A stretch of 64,000 nucleotides of DNA from the NCBI RefSeq assembly GCF_037198285.1, contig NZ_CP147243.1:1666422-1730421 (forward strand), in the 5' to 3' direction. Shown piece after piece: positions 2,170 to 50,986 of the stretch. How positions within the stretch are numbered: position 1 is the stretch's first letter; every line of letters begins with the position of its first letter. The stretch comes from Haladaptatus sp. DJG-WS-42. Its GTDB lineage: Archaea > Halobacteriota > Halobacteria > Halobacteriales > Halococcaceae. A program made the translations under genes and the position numbers. Under the pieces are notes generated by a model. It did no database searches and was not told where the DNA came from. It saw only the letters and a program-made list of their open reading frames with translations.

Positions 2170-3138
2170 ATGAAACTCGGGAGTATGCTGCCAACCCACT
2201 GTACCGGCGAGTATCGCGTCCCAGCGGAAACGATCCGCTGGTGGGCACGCGAAGCAACCGACGCGGGCTTCCACGGCCTCTGGGTACTCGACCACCTCGT
2301 GAAACCAGAAACGTATCGCACCAGCCTGCTCGACCCGTTGATTGCGCTTTCGCACGCCGCCGCGGTCGCGCCGGAGGCGAACCTCGGCACGTCCATTCTC
2401 ATTGCACCGCTTCGCCACACTGCGAACATCGCCTCACAAGCCCTCTCGATTCAGCACCTCACGGAGGGGCAGGTCACCCTCGGGCTCGGCGCCGGGTATG
2501 TCCCAAAGGAGTTCGAGGTGACGGGCGTTCCTCGCACCGAACGCGGCCCGCGCGTGAGCGAAGCCGTTTCAGTATTGAATCAGCTGTTCGACGGCGAGAC
2601 CTCCTTTTCTGGGCGCTTTCACGAGTTCGAGAACGTGCGAATCGATCCGGTGCTCGACACCCCACCAAAGCTCCTCGCCGGCGGTTCGTCGATTGTTGAC
2701 GAAGATGGAAACCGGCGCATCCCCCGCCCAATTCTCGACCGGATTTTGAACTGTGGTGGCTGGCTTGCCCGACCAACGAACCCGGAAAAGCTCGAAGCTG
2801 AGTGGGAGCTCATCACAGACTACGCCCGCGAACAGGGCGTCGATCCGGACTCGCTGCGCCGGGTGATGCTCCAGTACATCCACGTCGTGGACACCGACGA
2901 CCGCGAAGCAGCTCACCGCGAACAGAAAGTTGCCTACGAGGACTTCCTCGACGGCGACAGAAACTTCGACTACGCGAAACAGTACTGCTTGACCGGCACG
3001 CCAGCGGATATACAAGCCGACCTCGATGCCGTCGAAGCCATCGGCTTTGATGAAGTGATACTCGGGCAGGTCGTCCACACCCCTGCTGATCTCGAACAGC
3101 AACTCGGCTTACTGACCGACACCTTCCTCGACGCCTGA
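2170..3138 (+). CDS. LLM-class F420-dependent oxidoreductase
   Basis: A 322-residue TIM-barrel protein of the luciferase-like monooxygenase superfamily, in the branch that uses coenzyme F420. The N-terminal MKLGSMLPTH strand, the GFHGLWVLDHL region (about 35-45) and LGLGAGYVPKEFEVTGVP (about 105-122) are typical. The substrate cannot be told from sequence. F420-related genes elsewhere in this window (mer, cofE, npdG) show the cofactor is made and recycled. Its 3' end overlaps the convergent winged-helix gene by 30 bp. Confidence 0.85.
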   Translation: MKLGSMLPTHCTGEYRVPAETIRWWAREATDAGFHGLWVLDHLVKPETYRTSLLDPLIALSHAAAVAPEANLGTSILIAPLRHTANIASQALSIQHLTEGQVTLGLGAGYVPKEFEVTGVPRTERGPRVSEAVSVLNQLFDGETSFSGRFHEFENVRIDPVLDTPPKLLAGGSSIVDEDGNRRIPRPILDRILNCGGWLARPTNPEKLEAEWELITDYAREQGVDPDSLRRVMLQYIHVVDTDDREAAHREQKVAYEDFLDGDRNFDYAKQYCLTGTPADIQADLDAVEAIGFDEVILGQVVHTPADLEQQLGLLTDTFLDA

Positions 3139-4749
3139 GCCGTCCGCCATGAGGCGTGCGGAGGGTGCTGGCTCCGGTTCCGGGCGCAGGGCGGCGTTCG
3201 CTTCTTGTGAGAGTCGGGTAACGACCGCGCGGCCCTCGCGTTCGCGCACCACGATGCCGTCGGCTTCGAGCCGCTGGAGGTGATGCGTGATCGTACTCGG
3301 GTCGCGCCCGACAGCCGACGCGAGCGCGGAGACAGAGGCGGGGCCGAGCCGCGAGAGCGCGTCCAAGACGGTCGCCGTCGCCTCGTCGTTGAGCGCCGCG
3401 ACGAGTTCGTGACCTTCGGTGTGTGCCGAATAGAACCGACGCTTGCCCCGGATTTTCGCGCCCGAAATCAGCTGCTCGTCTTCGAGCACGCGGAGGTGAT
3501 GGCGCGCCGTCGAAAGCGGCACATCCGCGCGTTCTGCCACCGCCGAGAGGTAGATGCCGGGTGACTCGTTGATGGCCGAAAAGACGGCATCGCGCCCCTC
3601 GTGTTCGAGCGGGTCTGAGTCGTCAAAGCGGCTGTAGCGAAACGGCGCAATGATGCGCGTCACGCGCTCGATGCCGGCGTGCAGTCTGGTGGTGACGACG
3701 GGGCTGGCCGCCTGATTGGCGACGTGGCCAAAACTCGACCAGTCGATTGCGGGGCCATACCGCACCGCGCCCGCGGTGACGAGCGCGCCGAAACCGAGCG
3801 CGATGCCGGGTTCTTCGGCCACTGGCTCCGGTAGCGGGACGGTCGAAATCGGTGGAAGGAGTGCGGTGGCGCTGTCGTTCGACGGAGTTGTCGCGGTAGA
3901 CTCAGCGGCGCGTTGCTCGTCTCGTCGCTCGCTGCCGGATGCGGAATTGGCCACCGCTGCGGCATCGGCAGATTCGCTCGAACCCGGCTCCGTGGCGGCC
4001 GTGGTCTCGCTCGTCTGGGCTTCGTCTGCGTCTGCTTCCTGCGTCTCACTCGGGGTCTGCTCCGTTGTGACCACTGCGTCGGTCGGTTCGGTTGGCTCCG
4101 TGGTCACGTCCACTTCGGTCGTGGTTGCGGTTGTTTCGAGCGTCTCGCTAGCCGTGTTCGTCGCGTCAGCGTCAACGCTGTCCGTTGTGCCCGTCGTCTC
4201 AGTGGTCGGCGTTGCCGTCAGGTCGGCGGTGTCCGTTGAATCGACTGGGACGGTTACGGTGGTCGTCTCGTTCGTTCCCGTGTCCGTCGAGTCGGTCGAA
4301 ACCTCGGTGAGGGTGTCTCTTGTCTCGGTTACGTCGTCGGTCGCGTCACCCGTGTCAACGACTTCCGTCGTCGTCGTTCCGTCGTTCACATCTTCGACCA
4401 CGCTGGTCGCCCCGTCCTCGACGGTCGATTCGACCTCGGCTATCGTTTCGGTCGGTGTGGGCGTCGGCGCAGACACTTCGTCCGTGACCGTGTCCGTCGA
4501 AGGAGTCGTCTCAGTGGTCGAACCGGTCGGCTCGAGAGTCGGCGTTTCGGTAGTCGTGGTCGGTGTGAAAGTCAGCGTTTCCGTCTCGGTGTCGAGCGTC
4601 GTATTCGTCGTGTTGGTGGCGTCTGTCCCGGTTCCAGAAAGCGGGTCGTCAGGGAGTGCGGTGACGGCCATCGGTGAGAGAAGCAGTGCGGCAGCTACCA
4701 CAATCGTTCCAAACACCCACACGCTCACACGGTCGTCAGTCGCTGTCAT
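3109..4749 (-). CDS. Membrane-anchored protein with Thr-rich stalk and two winged-helix domains
   Basis: A 546-residue protein. A hydrophobic segment at about residues 10-32 is followed by about 260 residues dominated by Thr, Glu, Asp and Ser, then a second hydrophobic segment at about 315-332, and finally two winged-helix DNA-binding domains at about 385-445 (STARHHLRVLEDEQLIS) and 455-515 (STITHHLQRLEADGIV). The simplest topology puts the Thr-rich stalk outside and the DNA-binding part inside. The ATG at 4749 was chosen because an upstream in-frame ATG at 4878 would run into the preceding gene and past a TATA-like box (4802-4809). It lies 106 bp downstream of a secreted subtilase. Ligand and target genes are unknown. 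Confidence 0.8.
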   Translation of the reverse strand: MTATDDRVSVWVFGTIVVAAALLLSPMAVTALPDDPLSGTGTDATNTTNTTLDTETETLTFTPTTTTETPTLEPTGSTTETTPSTDTVTDEVSAPTPTPTETIAEVESTVEDGATSVVEDVNDGTTTTEVVDTGDATDDVTETRDTLTEVSTDSTDTGTNETTTVTVPVDSTDTADLTATPTTETTGTTDSVDADATNTASETLETTATTTEVDVTTEPTEPTDAVVTTEQTPSETQEADADEAQTSETTAATEPGSSESADAAAVANSASGSERRDEQRAAESTATTPSNDSATALLPPISTVPLPEPVAEEPGIALGFGALVTAGAVRYGPAIDWSSFGHVANQAASPVVTTRLHAGIERVTRIIAPFRYSRFDDSDPLEHEGRDAVFSAINESPGIYLSAVAERADVPLSTARHHLRVLEDEQLISGAKIRGKRRFYSAHTEGHELVAALNDEATATVLDALSRLGPASVSALASAVGRDPSTITHHLQRLEADGIVVREREGRAVVTRLSQEANAALRPEPEPAPSARLMADGSGVEEGVGQ

Positions 4750-4801
4750 GCTGAGGCATCTCTTCACACACCGTCGATACGCTGGATTCCAGACACATTC
4801 G

Positions 4802-4809
4802 CATATAGG
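4802..4809 (-). promoter_or_regulatory. TATA box for the membrane-anchored winged-helix gene
   Basis: On the minus strand the sequence reads ACCTATATGC. Initiation about 26 bp downstream would give a leader of roughly 30 nt before the ATG at 4749, so the gene can be transcribed separately from the subtilase behind it. Confidence 0.4.
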
Positions 4810-4838
4810 TTTTGGCCCAGCCAGCGCTGCTTCTTGCG

Positions 4839-4850
4839 AGAAAAAGGAAA
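4839..4850 (-). terminator. U-rich terminator behind the first subtilase
   Basis: Immediately after the subtilase stop codon the minus strand reads TTTCCTTTTTCTC. Archaeal termination typically needs only such a U-tract. Confidence 0.4.
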
Positions 4851-4855
4851 CTCGA

Positions 4856-7075
4856 TCAGTTCGTATCGACGCCGCCAACGGTGTTACTGTCCGTGCCGGT
4901 GAGCGTCACCGTCCGCACCTCGTCGAACGCCGCGGTGGCCTCTGCGGGGCCGAATTCGTAGCTGCCCGTCGAATCCGGCGCTTCGAGGAAGTACGTCCGA
5001 GTCACGGGGTCGTCGCCATCTTCGACCGCACCCACGGGCTCCGTGAACTCGACGTAGCGCGTGCCGTCTTCGGTGTACACCTCGGCGTCGTCGCCGCCGA
5101 CGAGCGTCCAGTCGAACGGAATCGCGTCGCGGACGAACGCCGCGCCGGTCGAACTGTCTACCGTAATCGTCACCTGATTCGTCTGCCCAGCGGTGAACAC
5201 CGAACCGTCGTCCGCCCGCGAACCGGTGGCTTCGAACACGGTGTCGGTGGCCGTGCCGTCGAGGCTCGTGAGTTCCACGTCTTTGAACTTCGCCGGATGC
5301 GGTTTGTTCTGCTCTGCGAGCGTGACCGCGCCGACGGCGTCGACGAATCCTGCGCCGATGTTCGCCGGGTTGTAGCCGCCGCGCACGTCCTTCGCGCTGG
5401 CTTCCATGATGAGCAACACGTCGAGTGGGTCTGGATACTCACCGTGGGTCTGGTAGTAGGCGTCCACGACGAGCGTGGCGACCCCGGCAGTGACGGGACA
5501 GGACATGCTCGTCCCCGAGATTTTGCCGTACCAGATTTCTGCGTCCTGTTCGTTCGGGTCGCCCGTGCTCGCGTACGCCTGCAACGGGTCGTCCGGCGAG
5601 AGCGTGCTCATGACGAGACTGCCGTTCGCGCCGACGCCGTTGCGGTAGATGCCGAACGGGCCCTCGGGTTGCTGACCCTTTGGCGGGGCTTCGCGGGCGG
5701 TGAGGTCGATGGTCCACGACGCGGTGAGGTTTGCGTACGGGACGATTTCGAAGTAGTATGTTTCGCCGCCGGTCACGGCTCCCGCGACGTGTTCTGGGTT
5801 GTCCAGGCTCGCACCGCTTGCGACGACGGGGCCGTCTTCTGCGCCTTGGTGGAGGTAGATATCGAGGTCTTGGCCCGGCGGCGTCCACGACACGTCGGCT
5901 TCGACGTAGCCCGCCTTCTCGGGGGCTGTCCACTCCTGATAGACGGCGTCGCCAACGCCCGCGTCGCTGGAACCGGGGCCGACGGTGCCGGTGAAGGTCG
6001 CTTCTGCGAGAACGGGCTGGTCTGCGAGGTTCGCGTCGAAGTAGTCGGTCAGGTTCGACAGTGCGAGTTCGCGGTCGTACTGTGCGCCCTCGCCGCCGCC
6101 GTCGTAGTCGGCGAACCGGCCGCGCGACGAAAAGTCAGTGACCGATTTATCGTCTTTCGTCGCGGCGACGCTGAGGACGTGCGGGGCTTTCGAGTAGTTA
6201 TTGAGCGTGTCCTCGCCGGGGCCGTCGTTGCCCGCCGAGAAGATGGGAAGGATGCCGCGCTGGAACGCTTCCCACGTGGCGACGTTGAGCGCGTCGCTTG
6301 GCACGAAGTCGTCGGGACTCGAACTGCCATACGAGTTCGAGACGATTTGCACGTCGGTTTTCCCTTGCTCGACCCGCGAGAGCAGGTGGTCGTAGGCTCC
6401 CACTGCTTGGACGATGAGGAGGGTTGCCCCCGCCGAGTAGACGGTGAGTTTCGCGTCGGGAGCCATACCCTTGTACTGGCCGCCGCTCGCGGTGCCGTCG
6501 CCCGCAACCGACCCGCTGGTGTGGGTGCCGTGGCCGTTATCGTCGGTGTCTGCGGGGCCCGCATCGACCCACATCGTGCCCGAATCGAGCGGGTCGGTGT
6601 AGCGCCAGTTGTGCTGGAGGTTCGTCTGGTGGTCGGGATGGTCGCCGTCGATACCGGAATCGATGACCACCGAGTGGGCGGTTTCGCCCGTGTAAAACAG
6701 GTTTTCTTGGACGATGTCAGCGCCCGTCGCCTCCCGCGAATCTTCGTTGTGATAGTCGAGTTGTTCGTTCGCTTGGACGTATCTTACTGCGGGAATCTCT
6801 CCGAGCGTCGCAATCTGGTCACCCGTGAGTTTCGTATAGGCAATCGGCAACACCTCGAAGGCGAAGTGGCCTTCCGCGAGGTCGAACTGCGCGAGGAGGT
6901 CCACGTTCGCGGGGTCGTCGAAGACGACGAGCACTTCCTGTAACTCCGTACTGGTTGTGTCGAGACCGGTGTCGATGGTTGGTGTCTGTGCAAACCCGCT
7001 TCCGGTGAACGGGACGAGTGTGGCCGCGCCCGCCGCGCCCGTGGCTTTGAGTACACTCCGTCTGCTGAAACGCAT
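4856..7075 (-). CDS. Tat-exported S8 subtilase with beta-domain inserted in the catalytic domain
   Basis: A 739-residue secreted serine protease. It begins with a twin-arginine signal (MRFSRRSVLKATGAAGAATL), then an inhibitor-like propeptide to about 125. The triad is D139 (VVIDSGID), H182 (NGHGTHTSG) and S523 (GTSMSCPVTAG), with oxyanion N283. Residues about 343-470 form an extra beta-rich segment resembling a pre-peptidase C-terminal domain, placed between the Asn and Ser blocks; the neighbouring paralogue has only a short loop there. A further beta-rich C-terminal region follows from about 590. The ATG at 7075 starts the Tat signal and lies 25 bp from a TATA box; an earlier in-frame ATG at 7171 is rejected. 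Confidence 0.93.
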   Translation of the reverse strand: MRFSRRSVLKATGAAGAATLVPFTGSGFAQTPTIDTGLDTTSTELQEVLVVFDDPANVDLLAQFDLAEGHFAFEVLPIAYTKLTGDQIATLGEIPAVRYVQANEQLDYHNEDSREATGADIVQENLFYTGETAHSVVIDSGIDGDHPDHQTNLQHNWRYTDPLDSGTMWVDAGPADTDDNGHGTHTSGSVAGDGTASGGQYKGMAPDAKLTVYSAGATLLIVQAVGAYDHLLSRVEQGKTDVQIVSNSYGSSSPDDFVPSDALNVATWEAFQRGILPIFSAGNDGPGEDTLNNYSKAPHVLSVAATKDDKSVTDFSSRGRFADYDGGGEGAQYDRELALSNLTDYFDANLADQPVLAEATFTGTVGPGSSDAGVGDAVYQEWTAPEKAGYVEADVSWTPPGQDLDIYLHQGAEDGPVVASGASLDNPEHVAGAVTGGETYYFEIVPYANLTASWTIDLTAREAPPKGQQPEGPFGIYRNGVGANGSLVMSTLSPDDPLQAYASTGDPNEQDAEIWYGKISGTSMSCPVTAGVATLVVDAYYQTHGEYPDPLDVLLIMEASAKDVRGGYNPANIGAGFVDAVGAVTLAEQNKPHPAKFKDVELTSLDGTATDTVFEATGSRADDGSVFTAGQTNQVTITVDSSTGAAFVRDAIPFDWTLVGGDDAEVYTEDGTRYVEFTEPVGAVEDGDDPVTRTYFLEAPDSTGSYEFGPAEATAAFDEVRTVTLTGTDSNTVGGVDTN

Positions 7076-7095
7076 GACAGTAGGCAACAATTGTC

Positions 7096-7104
7096 TATTA
7101 AATA
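7096..7104 (-). promoter_or_regulatory. TATA box of the first subtilase
   Basis: The symmetrical motif TATTAAATA is centred 25 bp from the ATG at 7075, predicting a leaderless mRNA. Confidence 0.5.
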
Positions 7105-7201
7105 GTGTTCTGGCCAAACTATCCAAACGTCTGAATTTCGTGCGGAGAAACGTATGTTCGCCCGAATACAACGCTTTCTCCTCAGCGTGCGTATCTCAAA
7201 C

Positions 7202-7360
7202 ATGGCCTACGAATACAGTTGCCCGGAACCGGACTGTGGCTTCCGAGTCCGGACGGGGAGCGAGTACGAGACGTTCGAGCACGCAGAACTGCACGCAGAA
7301 GAAAAGCACCTCGTGTGGCACTCCGGAGAAGTCCTCCGAGAGACCACAACGGTCGTCTGA
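7202..7360 (+). CDS. Small DUF1059-like zinc protein
   Basis: A 52-residue protein with a Cys pair in CPEPDCGF (C7, C12) and a downstream His-rich helix HAELHAEEKH, the layout of DUF1059-type small metal-binding proteins. Function is unknown. The start at 7202 gives a compact family-like N-terminus (MAYEYSCPEPDCG); an in-frame ATG at 7154 would add 16 unrelated residues. It sits between the two subtilase genes on the opposite strand, and its stop codon directly abuts the stop codon of the second subtilase. Confidence 0.75.
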   Translation: MAYEYSCPEPDCGFRVRTGSEYETFEHAELHAEEKHLVWHSGEVLRETTTVV

Positions 7361-8794
7361 TTATTCGCTGACGATGCTGACCTCGCTGAAGTCAGCGAGA
7401 TTTCCGTTTGCCGCCCGCGAGACGGCGGCTTCCCCATCCACGAAGCCTGCGCCGATGTTCGCTGGGGTGTAGTCCGCACGGGCCTCGATGGCCGTCGCTT
7501 CGAGCGTGTTCAACACGTCGAGCGGGTCCGGGTACGACCCCGTCGCGTCGTAGTAGGCGTCCACGACGAGCGTGGCGACCCCGGCGGTCACCGGACAGGA
7601 CATGCTCGTCCCGCTGAGCGGGCCGTAGTAGAGGTCGTTGCCCTCGCCGGTCGCGTTGAGCGGGTCGAGCGGCGAGAGCGTGCTCACGACGGCGTTGCCG
7701 GGTGCGCCAACGCCGTTGCGGTAGAGGCCGACTGGACCGCTCACGGACTCGCCCGCGCGGTAGGCACTGAGGTTCTTGAAGGCGGTCTGGCGGTCGTAGT
7801 TCGTCTCTCCCGAGTACGCGGGGGCGCGGCCCCGCGAGGAAAAGTCGGTGACCGCTTTCTCGTCGGTCGTCGCGGCGACGCTGAGGACGTGGGGAGCTTT
7901 CGCGTAGTCGTTTAACGTGTTGGTTGCTGGCCCCGAGTTCCCGGCTGAAAAGACGGGGAGAATCCCTGCTTCGAACGCTTCCCACGTCGCGACGTTGAGC
8001 GCGGCGTCCGGGTCGTAGTCGTCCGCGCTCGCACTCCCATACGAATTCGAGACGATTTGAGCGTCCGTGTTTCCGGCGAGGCGTTCTGCGATGAGGTGGT
8101 CCATCGCGGAGACGGCGTGGATGATGAGTAACGTGAGTCCTGCGGAGTAGACGGTGAGGTCTGCGTCCGGGGCCATCCCACGGTTCTCGGCGGTGTTCGT
8201 CCCGTCGCCCGCAATCGACCCGCTGGTGTGGGTCCCGTGGCCGTTGTCGTCGGTGTCGAGGTTGCCAACGTCCGTCCAGAAGGTGGTCTCGCTCGTCCCG
8301 AGCGGGTTGAGGTAGCGATAGTTGTGCTGGAGGGTTACTTGGTGGTCGGGATGCAGGCCAGAAATCCCCGAATCGATGACGGCGGTGTGGACGTTCTCGC
8401 CGGTGTAGCCGAGGGCAGAGTTGACAGTTTCGACGCCGGTCACGTCGCGGGCGTCTGCGTTGTGATACTCGAGTTCTGTGTTGGCTTCGACGCGCCGGAC
8501 GGCGTCCCACGAGGCGACCTCCTCGATTTGCGACCCCGTCAGGCGGGTGTAGCCGATTGGGAGGACGGTGAGTCCGACGAAGCCGTCTTCGAGGCTGAGT
8601 CCGGAGAGCAGTGAGATGTCGTCGGTGGTGTCGAAGACGACGAGCACTTCCTGTGGGGCTTCGCTTCCGAGGTCGAGAACGTCGTCAACGAGTGGCAACG
8701 ACGCGCCCGCGCTCCCGCTTGCGAGCGCCGTGCCGATGCCTGCCGCGCCGATGCCTTTGAGAAACGTCCGTCGTGGCGTGTTCTGACGTGCCAT
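7361..8794 (-). CDS. Tat-exported S8 subtilase (halolysin-like)
   Basis: A 477-residue secreted serine protease, clearly paralogous to the enzyme at 4856-7075. The Tat signal is NTPRRTFLKGIGAAG, followed by a propeptide to about 125. Triad: D141 (AVIDSGIS), H186 (NGHGTHTSG) and S397 (GTSMSCPVTAG), with oxyanion N286. It ends soon after the catalytic domain, lacking both the inserted beta-domain and the C-terminal extension of its neighbour. The ATG at 8794 starts the Tat signal and lies about 27 bp from an AT-rich box (8817-8826). It is a likely product of tandem duplication. Confidence 0.92.
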   Translation of the reverse strand: MARQNTPRRTFLKGIGAAGIGTALASGSAGASLPLVDDVLDLGSEAPQEVLVVFDTTDDISLLSGLSLEDGFVGLTVLPIGYTRLTGSQIEEVASWDAVRRVEANTELEYHNADARDVTGVETVNSALGYTGENVHTAVIDSGISGLHPDHQVTLQHNYRYLNPLGTSETTFWTDVGNLDTDDNGHGTHTSGSIAGDGTNTAENRGMAPDADLTVYSAGLTLLIIHAVSAMDHLIAERLAGNTDAQIVSNSYGSASADDYDPDAALNVATWEAFEAGILPVFSAGNSGPATNTLNDYAKAPHVLSVAATTDEKAVTDFSSRGRAPAYSGETNYDRQTAFKNLSAYRAGESVSGPVGLYRNGVGAPGNAVVSTLSPLDPLNATGEGNDLYYGPLSGTSMSCPVTAGVATLVVDAYYDATGSYPDPLDVLNTLEATAIEARADYTPANIGAGFVDGEAAVSRAANGNLADFSEVSIVSE

Positions 8795-8875: not shown

Positions 8876-9376
8876 TCAGTCGAGATTTTCACCCTGATAC
8901 GCCCCCTCGTAGACGCCTTCGTGGTCAGCCTCTGCGAGGACGAGTTGGGCGATGCGGGAACCGTGTTCGATTTCGATGTCGTGGTGGACTTGGAGGAGCC
9001 CTTCGCCCTTGCCCTCGTAGCCCGCGTCCCAGACGGCGGTGTTCAGCATACACGAGTTGCGCAGCAGCGACGACCGCGGGTAGATGAACCCGACGTGCTC
9101 CTCGGGGATGGAGACGATTTCGGCGTAGCGGACGATGTAGCCGCCCGGCGGCAGGTAGTACGCGCCGTTCGGGTCGGGGTCTTCCGGTGGCACTTCGACT
9201 ACCTGCTCGCCCGCCATGCGCTGGCGGTCGCCGACCTCCTTGCCGTCCATGCCGATTCGGCCGGGTTCGCGCTGTTCGAACACGGCCTCAAGCGTGAGGT
9301 CGATGCCGTTCGGTTGAATTTGTTCGTCGGTGACCGGGGTGACGTTGTCTGCAACGAACTGCCCGCTTCGGAACAT
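8876..9376 (-). CDS. dcd: dCTP deaminase / dUTPase family enzyme
   Basis: A 166-residue protein of the trimeric dUTPase fold. The segments IQPNGIDLTL (near 22), YPRSSLLRNSC (near 101) and NTAVWDAGYEGKGEGLLQV (near 113) are the conserved motifs of dCTP deaminase-like enzymes, which convert dCTP to dUTP or dUMP for thymidylate synthesis and keep dUTP low. Whether this one deaminates, hydrolyses dUTP or does both cannot be decided by eye. The ATG at 9376 gives the family-like start MFRSGQF. It is divergent from the SDR gene, sharing a 156-bp intergenic region. Confidence 0.85.
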   Translation of the reverse strand: MFRSGQFVADNVTPVTDEQIQPNGIDLTLEAVFEQREPGRIGMDGKEVGDRQRMAGEQVVEVPPEDPDPNGAYYLPPGGYIVRYAEIVSIPEEHVGFIYPRSSLLRNSCMLNTAVWDAGYEGKGEGLLQVHHDIEIEHGSRIAQLVLAEADHEGVYEGAYQGENLD

Positions 9377-9454
9377 ACCTATGGAAGTTTGGCCCGAGAG
9401 CAAAGGTCTGCCGAAGCACGCACCTCTCACACAGCCGTCATTTTTGAGGATACG

Positions 9455-47401: not shown

Positions 47402-48777
47402 ACGTTCGCGTCCGCGGCATCTACACGACCGCCACCACCCACCTGCTCCACGAGGCGGGCCACGACGTGGTCCTCGCCTCAGAACCCATCCAGAACCGGT
47501 TCGACGAATCGTTCCCCGAGGCAGAGTACGACGCGACCGTCGAGACCACTGCCGACCGACAGGGCGTTTCGGTCATCGGCACCGACGACGCCGTCTCCGT
47601 CCTCCACGACCTGCTCTCGATTGGCATCGACACGTTCTCGTGGGACGACCCGGCTCCGCGTGGAGCCATCTGCAACGCCGTCGTGATGGAGACGAAAAAC
47701 AGCGGCGCAATCGTCGACTTGGGCGAGTGCGACGGCTTTCTCCCCTACTCGAAAGTTGACGACCGCGTCGAAGAAGGCGACGCGCTCCGCGTACAGGTGC
47801 GCGACCCCGCCGCGCCGTGGGGCGACGACCGGCCGGTCGTTGACACGCGACTCAGAGTGATGGGCGGTCTCGTTACGCTTGTCCGCGGGAGCCAACCCTC
47901 CGGCACGCGCCCGATGGCCCTCGGCGACCTCTTGCCGACCGACCCGCCGGAGGGCTGGTACGTAAACTGGAGTCGAGGCGCAGACGACGCCGGCCTTGAC
48001 GCCCTCGACGACGCACTTTCGGGTGCGGTCGAGCAGGCAACCGCCATCGAACAGGCCCTTTCGTCGGCTTCCGAACCCGAAGCCGACGCCCCCGTGATGC
48101 TCTCCGCGGGCGATGCGACGCGCTGGGTCTGGTTCGGCCGCGAGTCTCGCTTCGCGCTCGACGACCACCGCCGCGCCGTGACGACGACGATGCCCGGCCA
48201 CCACCGGACGAAGGCCGCAGACCGCCGGGCAAGCGCCGCCGTTGACTTCGCAGAGGCAATCTGCGACCCGAGCGGCGGCTTCCCCTTCGCCGCCGTCACC
48301 CGCCAGTTCGGCCCGATGACGGGCGACCGGCTGGCGATTGGCCACGGCAAACCAGAGGGCCGCCTCATCACGCTCGGGTCGGGCAAGGTCACCGACCGCG
48401 ACGTGGACAAACAGCGTATCACCCTCACCCGCGAGATGTCGCCCGGTGGCTCCTACGACGCCTTAGACGTGCCCCGGCGCGCTGGAGACGTGGCGGTCAC
48501 AAAGTTCACCGAGGGCAAGTGGTGGTATCCAACCGTCTACAAAAGCCAAGACGGCGAGCGTCGAGGCACCTACGTCAACATCTGTACGCCGGTCGAACTC
48601 TTCCCCGACAGCGTCCGCTACGTAGACTTGCACGTTGACGTCATCAAACACGCGGACGGAACGGTCGAGCGCGTCGATGACGACGAACTCGATGCGGCGG
48701 TCGAGGCGGGTCACATCTCTCCCGAACTTGCGGAAAAAGCGCGCCGCGTCGCGACCGCCATCGAAAACGCGCTTTAA
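47398..48777 (+). CDS. FAU-1-like RNA-binding protein (DUF402, S1-type domain)
   Basis: A 459-residue protein of the FAU-1 type. The N-terminal half contains an S1-like barrel (SGAIVDLGECDGFLPYSKVDD and VEEGDALRVQV), related to RNase E/G. The C-terminal DUF402 domain is seen in KWWYPTVYKSQDGERRGTYVNICTP-type sequence and YVDLHVDVIKHADGTVERVDDDEL. FAU-1 of Pyrococcus binds AU-rich RNA and has been linked to rRNA processing. Start at 47398 overlaps the preceding stop. Its end overlaps the LVIVD gene by 4 bp. Confidence 0.88.
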   Translation: MNVRVRGIYTTATTHLLHEAGHDVVLASEPIQNRFDESFPEAEYDATVETTADRQGVSVIGTDDAVSVLHDLLSIGIDTFSWDDPAPRGAICNAVVMETKNSGAIVDLGECDGFLPYSKVDDRVEEGDALRVQVRDPAAPWGDDRPVVDTRLRVMGGLVTLVRGSQPSGTRPMALGDLLPTDPPEGWYVNWSRGADDAGLDALDDALSGAVEQATAIEQALSSASEPEADAPVMLSAGDATRWVWFGRESRFALDDHRRAVTTTMPGHHRTKAADRRASAAVDFAEAICDPSGGFPFAAVTRQFGPMTGDRLAIGHGKPEGRLITLGSGKVTDRDVDKQRITLTREMSPGGSYDALDVPRRAGDVAVTKFTEGKWWYPTVYKSQDGERRGTYVNICTPVELFPDSVRYVDLHVDVIKHADGTVERVDDDELDAAVEAGHISPELAEKARRVATAIENAL

Positions 48778-50255
48778 TCGGACTGTTCTTTTCGGCGCAG
48801 GGAGCGCCACGCGCCGAGGCCGACCCCGGCAAGCGCTGTGGGGACGCCAAAGCCCGGCCCGGTGGTCTCAGTGGTCGTCTCCTGCGTGGTCGTGGTTGGC
48901 TCCGCTGTCGTGGTTTGGGTCGTCGTTTGCGTGGCCGTCGTCTGCGTCGCCGTCTGCGTCTGCGTGGGGGTTTCTGTCTCCGTCAACGACGGCGGATTTG
49001 CTTGCTCGCCTGCGTGGTCGGGGAAGGTGTACAGCGCCGCGCCACTGGCACCACTGGCGCTCGGATTCTCGTGGCTAGTCGCGACGAAGAACTCACCGGA
49101 GACGGCGAGTTGTGCCGTCCAGAAACTCGTCTCGTCGGGCGCGCGCCACCACGCGAGCTCCTCGGGATTGGCCGGGTCTGCGATGTCGTGAATCTTCACG
49201 CCGCCTTGATACCACGAGGTGTAGAGGCGGTCGCCCGCGATGCCGAAGTTGTGCGACGTGGTCCACGTGCCTTGGAAGGTGGCGTCTGCGGTTTCCGGTG
49301 GGTCAATCATCACGAGCGACTCCGGGGCGGTTTTATCGGAGATGTCGAACAGCTCGATGCCGCTTGGCCCACCAGAATCGTCAGAGGCGTCTACGTCCCA
49401 CGACTCGCCGCCAACGCCCATGACCGTCGCGTCGTCGTTGACGGTAACGTAGTGGTCGTTGCCCGGCGGCTCGAACACCCGCTGGCTGAGTTGGTCGTCG
49501 GTGAGTTGGGCGAGTTCGTCCGGGTCGGGCGTCCGCACGTTGCCCAGATATTCGGGATTCGCGGGGTCTGTACAATTGACAATCCACGTGCCTGCATCCC
49601 AGAAGACGAGATACGCGATGGCGTCTTTGACGAAAAGGTCGTGGAGCGTCCAGACGCTGGTGTTGATGTCTGCCCAGCGCTCGTCGTGGTCTGCAATCGA
49701 CCAGCGGCCGACTTCCTCTGGTTCGCCACTGATATCGACGATGACGAGTTCGTTTTCTCGCCTGTCGATGTCGGCGTGTTCGTTGTCGCCGAGGTAGGCG
49801 GTGTCGCCTTCGAGATAGACGTTGTGGTGGAAGAAGTTCGTCTCGTAGACGGCGCGTTGGGTCGGATTCGCCGGGTCTGAAACATCGTAGATGACGAGCG
49901 CGTTGATATTTTGTCTCGCCGTGGGATTTGCTGGCCCGGCGACGAGGAGGGTGTCACCGTCTACTTTTACGTCGTAGATGCCGCGAAGCGGGCCGCCCTC
50001 AACGTCGCTCAGCAATCCGCGTTCTTCTGCGAGTATCGTCGGATTTGCGGGGCTACTCACATCGACGGTTGCAAAGCCGTCGGTCAGGGCGACGTAGGCG
50101 GTTTCGCCGTCGGCGCTCACAACCACTTCTTTCACACGGGGGAGGTCAAGGCGAGCGATTGGTGCGTAACCGGATTCCTGCGCAGTGCCGATATGACTGA
50201 AAAGAGGGAGGGTGGCGCCTGCGGCTGCAGCCTGGAGGACCTGTCTGCGGCGCAT
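48774..50255 (-). CDS. LVIVD-repeat surface protein with Tat signal and PGF-CTERM tail
   Basis: A 493-residue exported protein. MRRRQVLQAAAAGATL is a Tat signal. The body consists of LVIVD-type beta-propeller repeats, seen as repeated units such as VVDVSSPANPTIL, IYDVSDPANPTQ and IVNCTDPANPEYLG. A Thr-rich spacer (about 430-465) leads to a PGF-CTERM-like tail: GPGFGVPTALAGVGLGAW then RRK, the archaeosortase signal for lipid attachment at the cell surface. Ligand is unknown. Confidence 0.85.
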   Translation of the reverse strand: MRRRQVLQAAAAGATLPLFSHIGTAQESGYAPIARLDLPRVKEVVVSADGETAYVALTDGFATVDVSSPANPTILAEERGLLSDVEGGPLRGIYDVKVDGDTLLVAGPANPTARQNINALVIYDVSDPANPTQRAVYETNFFHHNVYLEGDTAYLGDNEHADIDRRENELVIVDISGEPEEVGRWSIADHDERWADINTSVWTLHDLFVKDAIAYLVFWDAGTWIVNCTDPANPEYLGNVRTPDPDELAQLTDDQLSQRVFEPPGNDHYVTVNDDATVMGVGGESWDVDASDDSGGPSGIELFDISDKTAPESLVMIDPPETADATFQGTWTTSHNFGIAGDRLYTSWYQGGVKIHDIADPANPEELAWWRAPDETSFWTAQLAVSGEFFVATSHENPSASGASGAALYTFPDHAGEQANPPSLTETETPTQTQTATQTTATQTTTQTTTAEPTTTTQETTTETTGPGFGVPTALAGVGLGAWRSLRRKEQSD

Positions 50256-50308
50256 GCCCCATGTAAACCCGTTGCACATATGGCAGTTTTGGTCAGGCCA
50301 CTTGCGGT

Positions 50309-50986
50309 TCAGTTGCTGTTGTTGGTGGGCAACTGCGGGATGAGCCACGAGAGGAAGGCGTCTTCACTCCGGGTCTGCATCCAGATGCGTCCGGGGCCGG
50401 TGAACGTCACGACGAGGCCTTCGCCGCTCAGGAGCGTGGACTTGAGGCCGCCGACTTTGTTCACCGTGAAGTTTGTCGTCTCCTCGAACGCGACGACGTG
50501 GCCGGTGTCAACGATGTATTTCTCGCCAGCTTCCAAGTCGACTTCCTGAATCGCGCCGTAGCTCGACAGGAAGGTTTCGCCCGTCCCGGTGAGTTTAAGC
50601 AAGAACAATCCTTCGCCGCCGAAGAACGTCCGGCCGCCACCGAACTTCGTGTCGATATCGATGCTCGGATCTGCGGCGAGAAACGACCCTGATTGGACGT
50701 AGAGCGTCTCGTCTTCGATGTCGTGGTTCACCACGTCGCCGGGAAGCGGCGGGGCAAGCGTGACGTGCCCGTCTGCGTTCGCAGTGAACGTGTTCATGAA
50801 GAAGCTCTCGCCGCCGAGGACAGAGCGTTTCAGCGACCCGAGAATCCCGCCGTTCGCAGAAGTCTTGATTTCAACGCCGTCTGTGTAGCTGACCATCGAA
50901 CCCGCTTCGGTGACGATTGCCTCGCCTGCGTCGAGGTGGACGGTCACGAGGGCGAACGACGGTCGGTGGTCGATTTCGTGGTGCAT
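50309..50986 (-). CDS. AIM24/TIGR00266 family protein
   Basis: A 225-residue all-beta protein. Family signatures are AIVTEAGSMVSYTDGVEIKT, GGESFFMNTFTA, GGGRTFFGGEGLFLLKLTG and STLLSGEGLVVTFTGPG, with repeated Gly-rich turns. AIM24-like proteins are widespread; function is unknown in archaea. It is cytosolic by sequence. It lies upstream of the LVIVD gene on the same strand. Confidence 0.9.
   Translation of the reverse strand: MHHEIDHRPSFALVTVHLDAGEAIVTEAGSMVSYTDGVEIKTSANGGILGSLKRSVLGGESFFMNTFTANADGHVTLAPPLPGDVVNHDIEDETLYVQSGSFLAADPSIDIDTKFGGGRTFFGGEGLFLLKLTGTGETFLSSYGAIQEVDLEAGEKYIVDTGHVVAFEETTNFTVNKVGGLKSTLLSGEGLVVTFTGPGRIWMQTRSEDAFLSWLIPQLPTNNSN

Follow-up and report, generated by a model that had tools for sequence, protein, structure and literature searches.

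A predicted membrane-anchored double winged-helix regulator recurrently located beside secreted peptidase genes in haloarchaea

The window analyzed here, the whole 64,000-nucleotide stretch of DNA from Haladaptatus sp. DJG-WS-42, encodes a double winged-helix protein (HTH) that we read, with a probability of about 0.5, as a one-component transcription regulator anchored in the membrane, which was recruited to loci of secreted peptidases and most likely controls them according to the state of the cell surface. In the proposed mechanism, an N-terminal signal would export an acidic, Thr-rich, possibly glycosylated stalk, a small-residue-rich second hydrophobic segment (TM2) would cross the membrane again in the direction of the cytosol, and there two winged helices (wHTHs), together with a basic linker, would bind DNA. 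Transcription of the adjoining secreted peptidase genes (S8, sometimes M14) would then be controlled by the state of the cell surface; the target genes, the sign of the control, and the signal are parts of the model that we infer. The computed parts are the domain order, the conservation of the family, purifying selection on the wHTHs, recurrent adjacency to peptidase genes, and soluble paralogues at such genes.

Gene Order and Transcription Units

On the minus strand, the locus runs dut, S8B, S8A, and HTH (Table 1), and a luciferase-like monooxygenase gene converges on HTH with an overlap of 30 nt. Both subtilases match the Peptidase_S8 profile (PF00082) with intact D, H, N, and S motifs and carry twin-arginine motifs (SRRSVLK; PRRTFLK), although the Tat model score of S8B (19.7) falls just under the cut-off of 22.7. 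Between the catalytic Asn and Ser motifs, S8A is ~130 residues longer than S8B (282 to 523 vs. 285 to 397), and the extra stretch looks like an inserted beta domain of the PPC type. A small ORF at 7202-7360 (+) (MAYEYSCPEPDCGF...) lies between S8B and S8A, and its DNA sequence is conserved across three species of the genus; its product is possibly a small zinc protein.

HTH lies 106 nt downstream of S8A and probably has its own promoter, because the gap holds a T-run 3' of S8A and a TATA-like element ~55 nt upstream of the HTH start that is conserved, including in two sister species. S8A and HTH are thus probably separate transcription units, and an S8A-HTH operon was judged unlikely. No operator motif shared among the S8A, S8B, and HTH upstream regions was found beyond chance (10-mers, mononucleotide shuffles), and direct control of S8A and S8B would accordingly be read from their position only.

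Table 1. Features of the HTH locus in window coordinates.
Feature	Position	Strand	Basis
HTH, predicted membrane-tethered double winged-helix protein, 546 aa, stop included	3109..4749	-	ORF, domain profiles, orthologues' common ATG
N-terminal hydrophobic segment / export signal, residues 8-30	4660..4728	-	hydropathy 2.1, conserved in orthologues
Acidic Thr-rich stalk, residues 33-310 (~270 residues)	3820..4653	-	composition, low conservation, dN/dS 0.41
TM2, weak small-residue-rich hydrophobic segment, residues 314-331, PGIALGFGALVTAGAVRY	3757..3810	-	hydropathy 1.19, family-conserved position
Winged helix 1, HVO_0163_N type, residues 384-447	3409..3600	-	PF24266 35.9 bits, pLDDT about 95
Winged helix 2, HTH_20/ArsR type, residues 452-522	3184..3396	-	PF12840, NF033788 above cut-off; pLDDT about 97
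TATA-like element of HTH gene	4801..4809	-	conserved in three species; consensus by eye only
T-rich stretch after S8A, possible terminator	4841..4850	-	sequence
S8A, Tat-exported subtilase, 739 aa, extra domain between Asn and Ser motifs	4856..7075	-	Peptidase_S8 profile, motifs
S8B, Tat-type subtilase, 477 aa	7361..8794	-	Peptidase_S8 profile, motifs, Tat motif in sequence
dut/dcd-type nucleotidohydrolase, syntenic locus marker	8876..9430	-	NF002598 227.7 bits; same order in other genera

Domain Layout and Predicted Topology

The layout that the earlier note had described for HTH, with an export signal or TM segment, a stalk, a second hydrophobic segment, and two winged helices, was recovered, as was the gene order, in which HTH follows the Tat-type S8A near a second subtilase on the same strand. 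The N-terminal segment is strongly hydrophobic (Kyte-Doolittle 2.1 over 19 aa) and could be a signal that is cleaved off; a PDDPLS motif conserved in the genus follows it. Residues 33-300 of the stalk contain 31% Thr, 12% Glu, and 11% Asp, with a net charge of -56 and nearly no aromatic residues.

The first wHTH passes the PF24266 (HTH_HVO_0163_N) gathering cut-off of 31 bits, and the second is matched at about residues 460-510 by HTH_20/ArsR/MarR models (best 58.5 bits) and by NF033788 (73.3 bits, cut-off 55), which identifies it as an ArsR-type wHTH. The cysteine-based metal site of ArsR/SmtB metalloregulators is missing, as no cysteine occurs anywhere in the 546-aa chain. AlphaFold2 modeled both wHTHs at a pLDDT of about 95-98. 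Foldseek returned ArsR-type single-domain matches, and two-domain overlays, ScpB-type double winged helices among them, were poor; therefore, no function was transferred from these matches.

TM2 is weak in HTH, and the segment is mostly stronger in homologues (median hydropathy 1.65 over 17 aa). AlphaFold2 leaves it below a pLDDT of 50 and without a helix, both in HTH and in one homologue with a more hydrophobic TM2. The weak hydropathy in this species and the unstructured models, together with the ScpB-type matches, would suit a surface protein whose C-terminal winged helices lie outside the cell or serve in protein contacts, rather than a transcription factor. We consider this very improbable, given the charge asymmetry around TM2, the absence of TM2 from members without a signal, and the strong purifying selection on the ArsR/MarR-type wHTHs described below. 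The mean net charge of the 59 members scored was -3.0 in the 20 aa before TM2, +0.5 in the 20 aa after it, and +3.0 over the linker (before vs. after, p 1e-9), which is the pattern expected if the C-terminus is inside. Moreover, TM2 is also absent from G016s, four g29 paralogues, and G329, the members that have no N-terminal signal. Since AlphaFold2 leaves TM2 below 50, the predicted topology of HTH, with the stalk outside and the wHTH pair in the cytosol, rests on hydropathy, charge, and this co-loss.

Elsewhere in the window, an exported protein of the Tat type is encoded at 48774-50348 (-); it resembles a PGF-CTERM-like surface protein, with a Thr-rich stalk in the same style as that of HTH and an anchor rich in Gly/Ala at the C-terminus (PGFGVPTALAGVGLGAWRSLRR). 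Its Gly/Ala-rich end is comparable to TM2, which suggests that this organism makes use of such segments.

Distribution of the Family

A search with the C-terminal part of HTH against 391 genomes of the class gave matches in 226 genomes at E ≤ 1e-8, with many weaker generic double-wHTH matches. The strong matches have a distinctive common core (FRYSRYDDSDPLEH...; alignment A1), and the family is widespread in haloarchaea; in a phylum-wide sample, only weak matches (30-35% identity) were obtained outside the order. Based on an HMM score >100 bits, the family set consists of 96 loci, 76 of which encode a TM1/signal, a stalk, a TM2-like segment, and a double wHTH. In these 76, a median of about 67 residues separates the TM2-like segment from the wHTHs. 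The stalks range from 16 to 1263 residues and are acidic, rich in Thr/Ser, and poor in aromatics (~0.5%). Natronorubrum texcoconense (L177 / L086) has a family member of 1533 aa with a stalk of ~1260 residues. The G377 copy has no start codon before TM2 and the G333 copy is missing its stalk, and both may be decayed. We found no published description of the family in the literature.

Association With Secreted Peptidase Genes

Neighborhoods of up to 16 kb around the loci were examined with a codon-usage gene finder and with S8 and HTH profiles in all frames. Loci were picked by HTH score and not by neighborhood, save some of the second batch: G061, G262, G333, G261b, and G312b were fetched after their S8 coordinates were known, and all five are matches of the 391-genome search.

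Within the genus, G017 keeps the S8B-S8A-HTH block and its flanks collinear, with S8 and flanking proteins 86-97% identical and an HTH that is 71% identical over its full length and 90% in the wHTH part. The block is also kept in G016, where three genes come after S8A: first one for a soluble double-wHTH paralogue of 186 aa, then, in inverted orientation, one for a third subtilase (S8C, 984 aa), and finally the membrane HTH. A conserved neighborhood, set beforehand by the earlier note as the test that its proposal had to survive, is therefore present in 3/3 species of the genus, and it recurs in other families. The order dut-S8-HTH on one strand occurs in g1 (three species), G312, and G377, and in G387 acn/dut-S8B is followed by an M14 gene and S8C on the opposite strand and then by HTH. 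At six loci (G016, G281, G387, G312b, G261b, and G295b), S8C and HTH are divergent and ~155-221 nt apart; a divergent gene pair is a common layout of a regulator and its target. Soluble HTH copies stand in the order S8C-S8B-soluble HTH-M14 in G061 and G262 and soluble HTH-M14 in G187 and G260. At L130, L131, and L168, secreted peptidase genes (S8C, S8B, and M14 carboxypeptidase) form clusters that contain or adjoin a double-wHTH gene.

An S8 gene is the immediate neighbor in 14 of the 96 family loci, compared to about 0.4 expected by chance (naive binomial p 3e-17, from a PF00082 density of 8.8 per genome in 25 of these genomes). An M14 carboxypeptidase gene is the immediate neighbor in two further loci, and S8C lies ~2.2 kb away in another two; G187a and G260 were dropped as S8-adjacent because their neighbor is an M14 peptidase. 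The 14 S8 and 2 M14 loci span five archaeal families, several separate tree branches, and both divergent and downstream layouts. On the maximum-likelihood tree, 8 changes are required to account for the peptidase label, which takes in the two M14 loci and the two near loci, and well supported branches force at least 7 of these changes. When clustered at 70% identity, 10/49 clusters hold an S8-adjacent member; at 60% identity this is 2/21, a weak test because single linkage joins most of the family. Across genomes, HTH was found in 33/54 of those with S8A/B-like genes vs. 66/337 of those without (p 1e-9), a count tallied by hand from two search tables and confounded by phylogeny. These results support a non-random, repeatedly arisen association of the family with secreted peptidases.

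On the other hand, 82/96 loci have no adjoining S8 gene, and many of these lie beside mutS or near dut without S8. A ~920-aa gene divergent from the family member in many f4 genomes (L082 and others; Natrialbaceae-like) is one that we take to be mutS and was rejected as a protease, as its sequence reads as MutS. In Natronomonas (L170-L172), g67, and g20, dut stays close to HTH with no intervening S8 gene, and hence the dut-HTH order is found more widely than the S8 link. The L170 and L171 loci (Natronomonas gomsonensis) show the same region near the ends of two contigs, perhaps as an assembly duplicate. Because most members sit elsewhere and the dut-HTH order extends beyond the S8 link, the association is read as recurrent recruitment rather than an obligate partnership. 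The co-occurrence with adjacent S8 genes that the earlier note proposed to check thus exceeds chance but is absent from most of the family.

The S8-free majority, the separate HTH promoter, the lack of a shared motif, and the weak TM2 count against the main model. All but the last, along with the S8-free dut-HTH loci, would also be expected if HTH were a tethered regulator of broader envelope or other functions with targets elsewhere, and the dut-HTH locus a stable chromosomal site that gained or lost secreted peptidase genes with no regulatory link to them. This explanation is a serious one, but we consider it somewhat unlikely, as it fails for the associations at other sites (G312b, the Natronomonas b copies, and the g29 soluble copies) and for the differing orientations.

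Selection and the Role of the Stalk

In the comparison of G000 with G017, the two subtilases gave dN/dS values of 0.08 (S8A) and 0.14 (S8B), and within HTH the values were 0.11 in the wHTHs, 0.18 in TM2 plus linker, and 0.41 in the stalk. The wHTHs of HTH are, by this measure, under strong purifying selection, and the soluble wHTH paralogues are under moderate purifying selection (dN/dS 0.26-0.35). In five loci, soluble double-wHTH paralogues adjoin S8 or M14 genes while the stalk and TM are absent, which shows that the wHTH pair, and not the stalk, is the retained part. Control of peptidase gene transcription by the wHTH pair is therefore favored over a role of the stalk as protease substrate, and the soluble paralogues argue against stalk cleavage as the core mechanism.

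The stalks of S8-adjacent members did not differ significantly from those of other members (length and T+S, p 0.06; aromatics, p 0.92), and a stalk difference as a mark of protease cleavage or resistance was rejected. The suggestion in the earlier note that the subtilases cleave or shield the stalk was not supported: besides the unremarkable stalks with few aromatics, most members have no adjoining S8, and some peptidase-adjacent paralogues are stalkless. Its wider idea of protease-linked surface signaling keeps the conserved tethered architecture and the non-random association and loses the part on cleavage or shielding. The same stalk properties and the scarcity of S8 partners nearby weigh on a proteolytic switch, in which secreted subtilases would first shorten the stalk and cleavage within the membrane, at the Gly/Ala-rich TM2, would then release the wHTH pair to act on DNA. 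TM2 is indeed rich in small residues, adjacency to proteases recurs, natural soluble paralogues mimic the released form, and rhomboids and S2P proteases, whose targets are unknown, occur in haloarchaea (PMC9263693), but such a switch appears improbable overall.

Comparison With Known Regulators

HTH resembles the transmembrane transcription regulators (TTRs) in joining a DNA-binding domain to a predicted membrane segment within a single chain, with no partner kinase. Its DNA-binding part is recognized by PF24266, PF12840, and other profiles above cut-off and by the AlphaFold2 wHTHs. In ToxR and CadC, the wHTH is N-terminal and cytosolic and the outer domain is folded; HTH differs in that its two wHTHs stand in tandem at the C-terminus, preceded by an exported stalk of low complexity. 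In the available part of a census of TTRs such as ToxR, CadC, and TcpP, the haloarchaeal family is not named (PMC10269533).

Among Archaea, ArnR and ArnR1 of Sulfolobus acidocaldarius are membrane-bound HTH regulators of cell-surface structure genes, and ArnR has a single HTH at its N-terminus, a HAMP-like domain, a sensor domain, and two TM segments at its C-terminus (PMC6396743). HTH is likewise an archaeal, predicted membrane-bound HTH regulator, but its domain order is reversed, it has a stalk and two wHTHs, and no profile match to the HAMP-like and sensor domains of the ArnR type was found in it. The first wHTH is shared with HVO_0163-type proteins, to which HTH adds the export signal, stalk, and TM2; we found no paper on HVO_0163 function. 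S8A and S8B are Tat-type haloarchaeal subtilases and in this respect like the halolysins SptA and Nep. Cis-elements of the halolysins are known, including semi-palindromic elements of SptA, and the regulatory proteins of their expression remain to be determined (PMC6085418), which makes the HTH family a useful candidate.

Tentatively, stalked, tethered tandem-wHTH regulators could be an undescribed haloarchaeal class that reads the cell surface directly and controls secreted peptidase genes. Its members would then be the halolysin regulators that have so far been missing, and soluble offshoots would have been recruited at these same loci. If the main model is true, HTH would join the small number of archaeal membrane-bound regulators that have been studied, with a stalk on the outside in place of a folded sensor. 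As a family found repeatedly beside secreted peptidase genes, it is a concrete, testable candidate for the control of extracellular proteases in haloarchaea.
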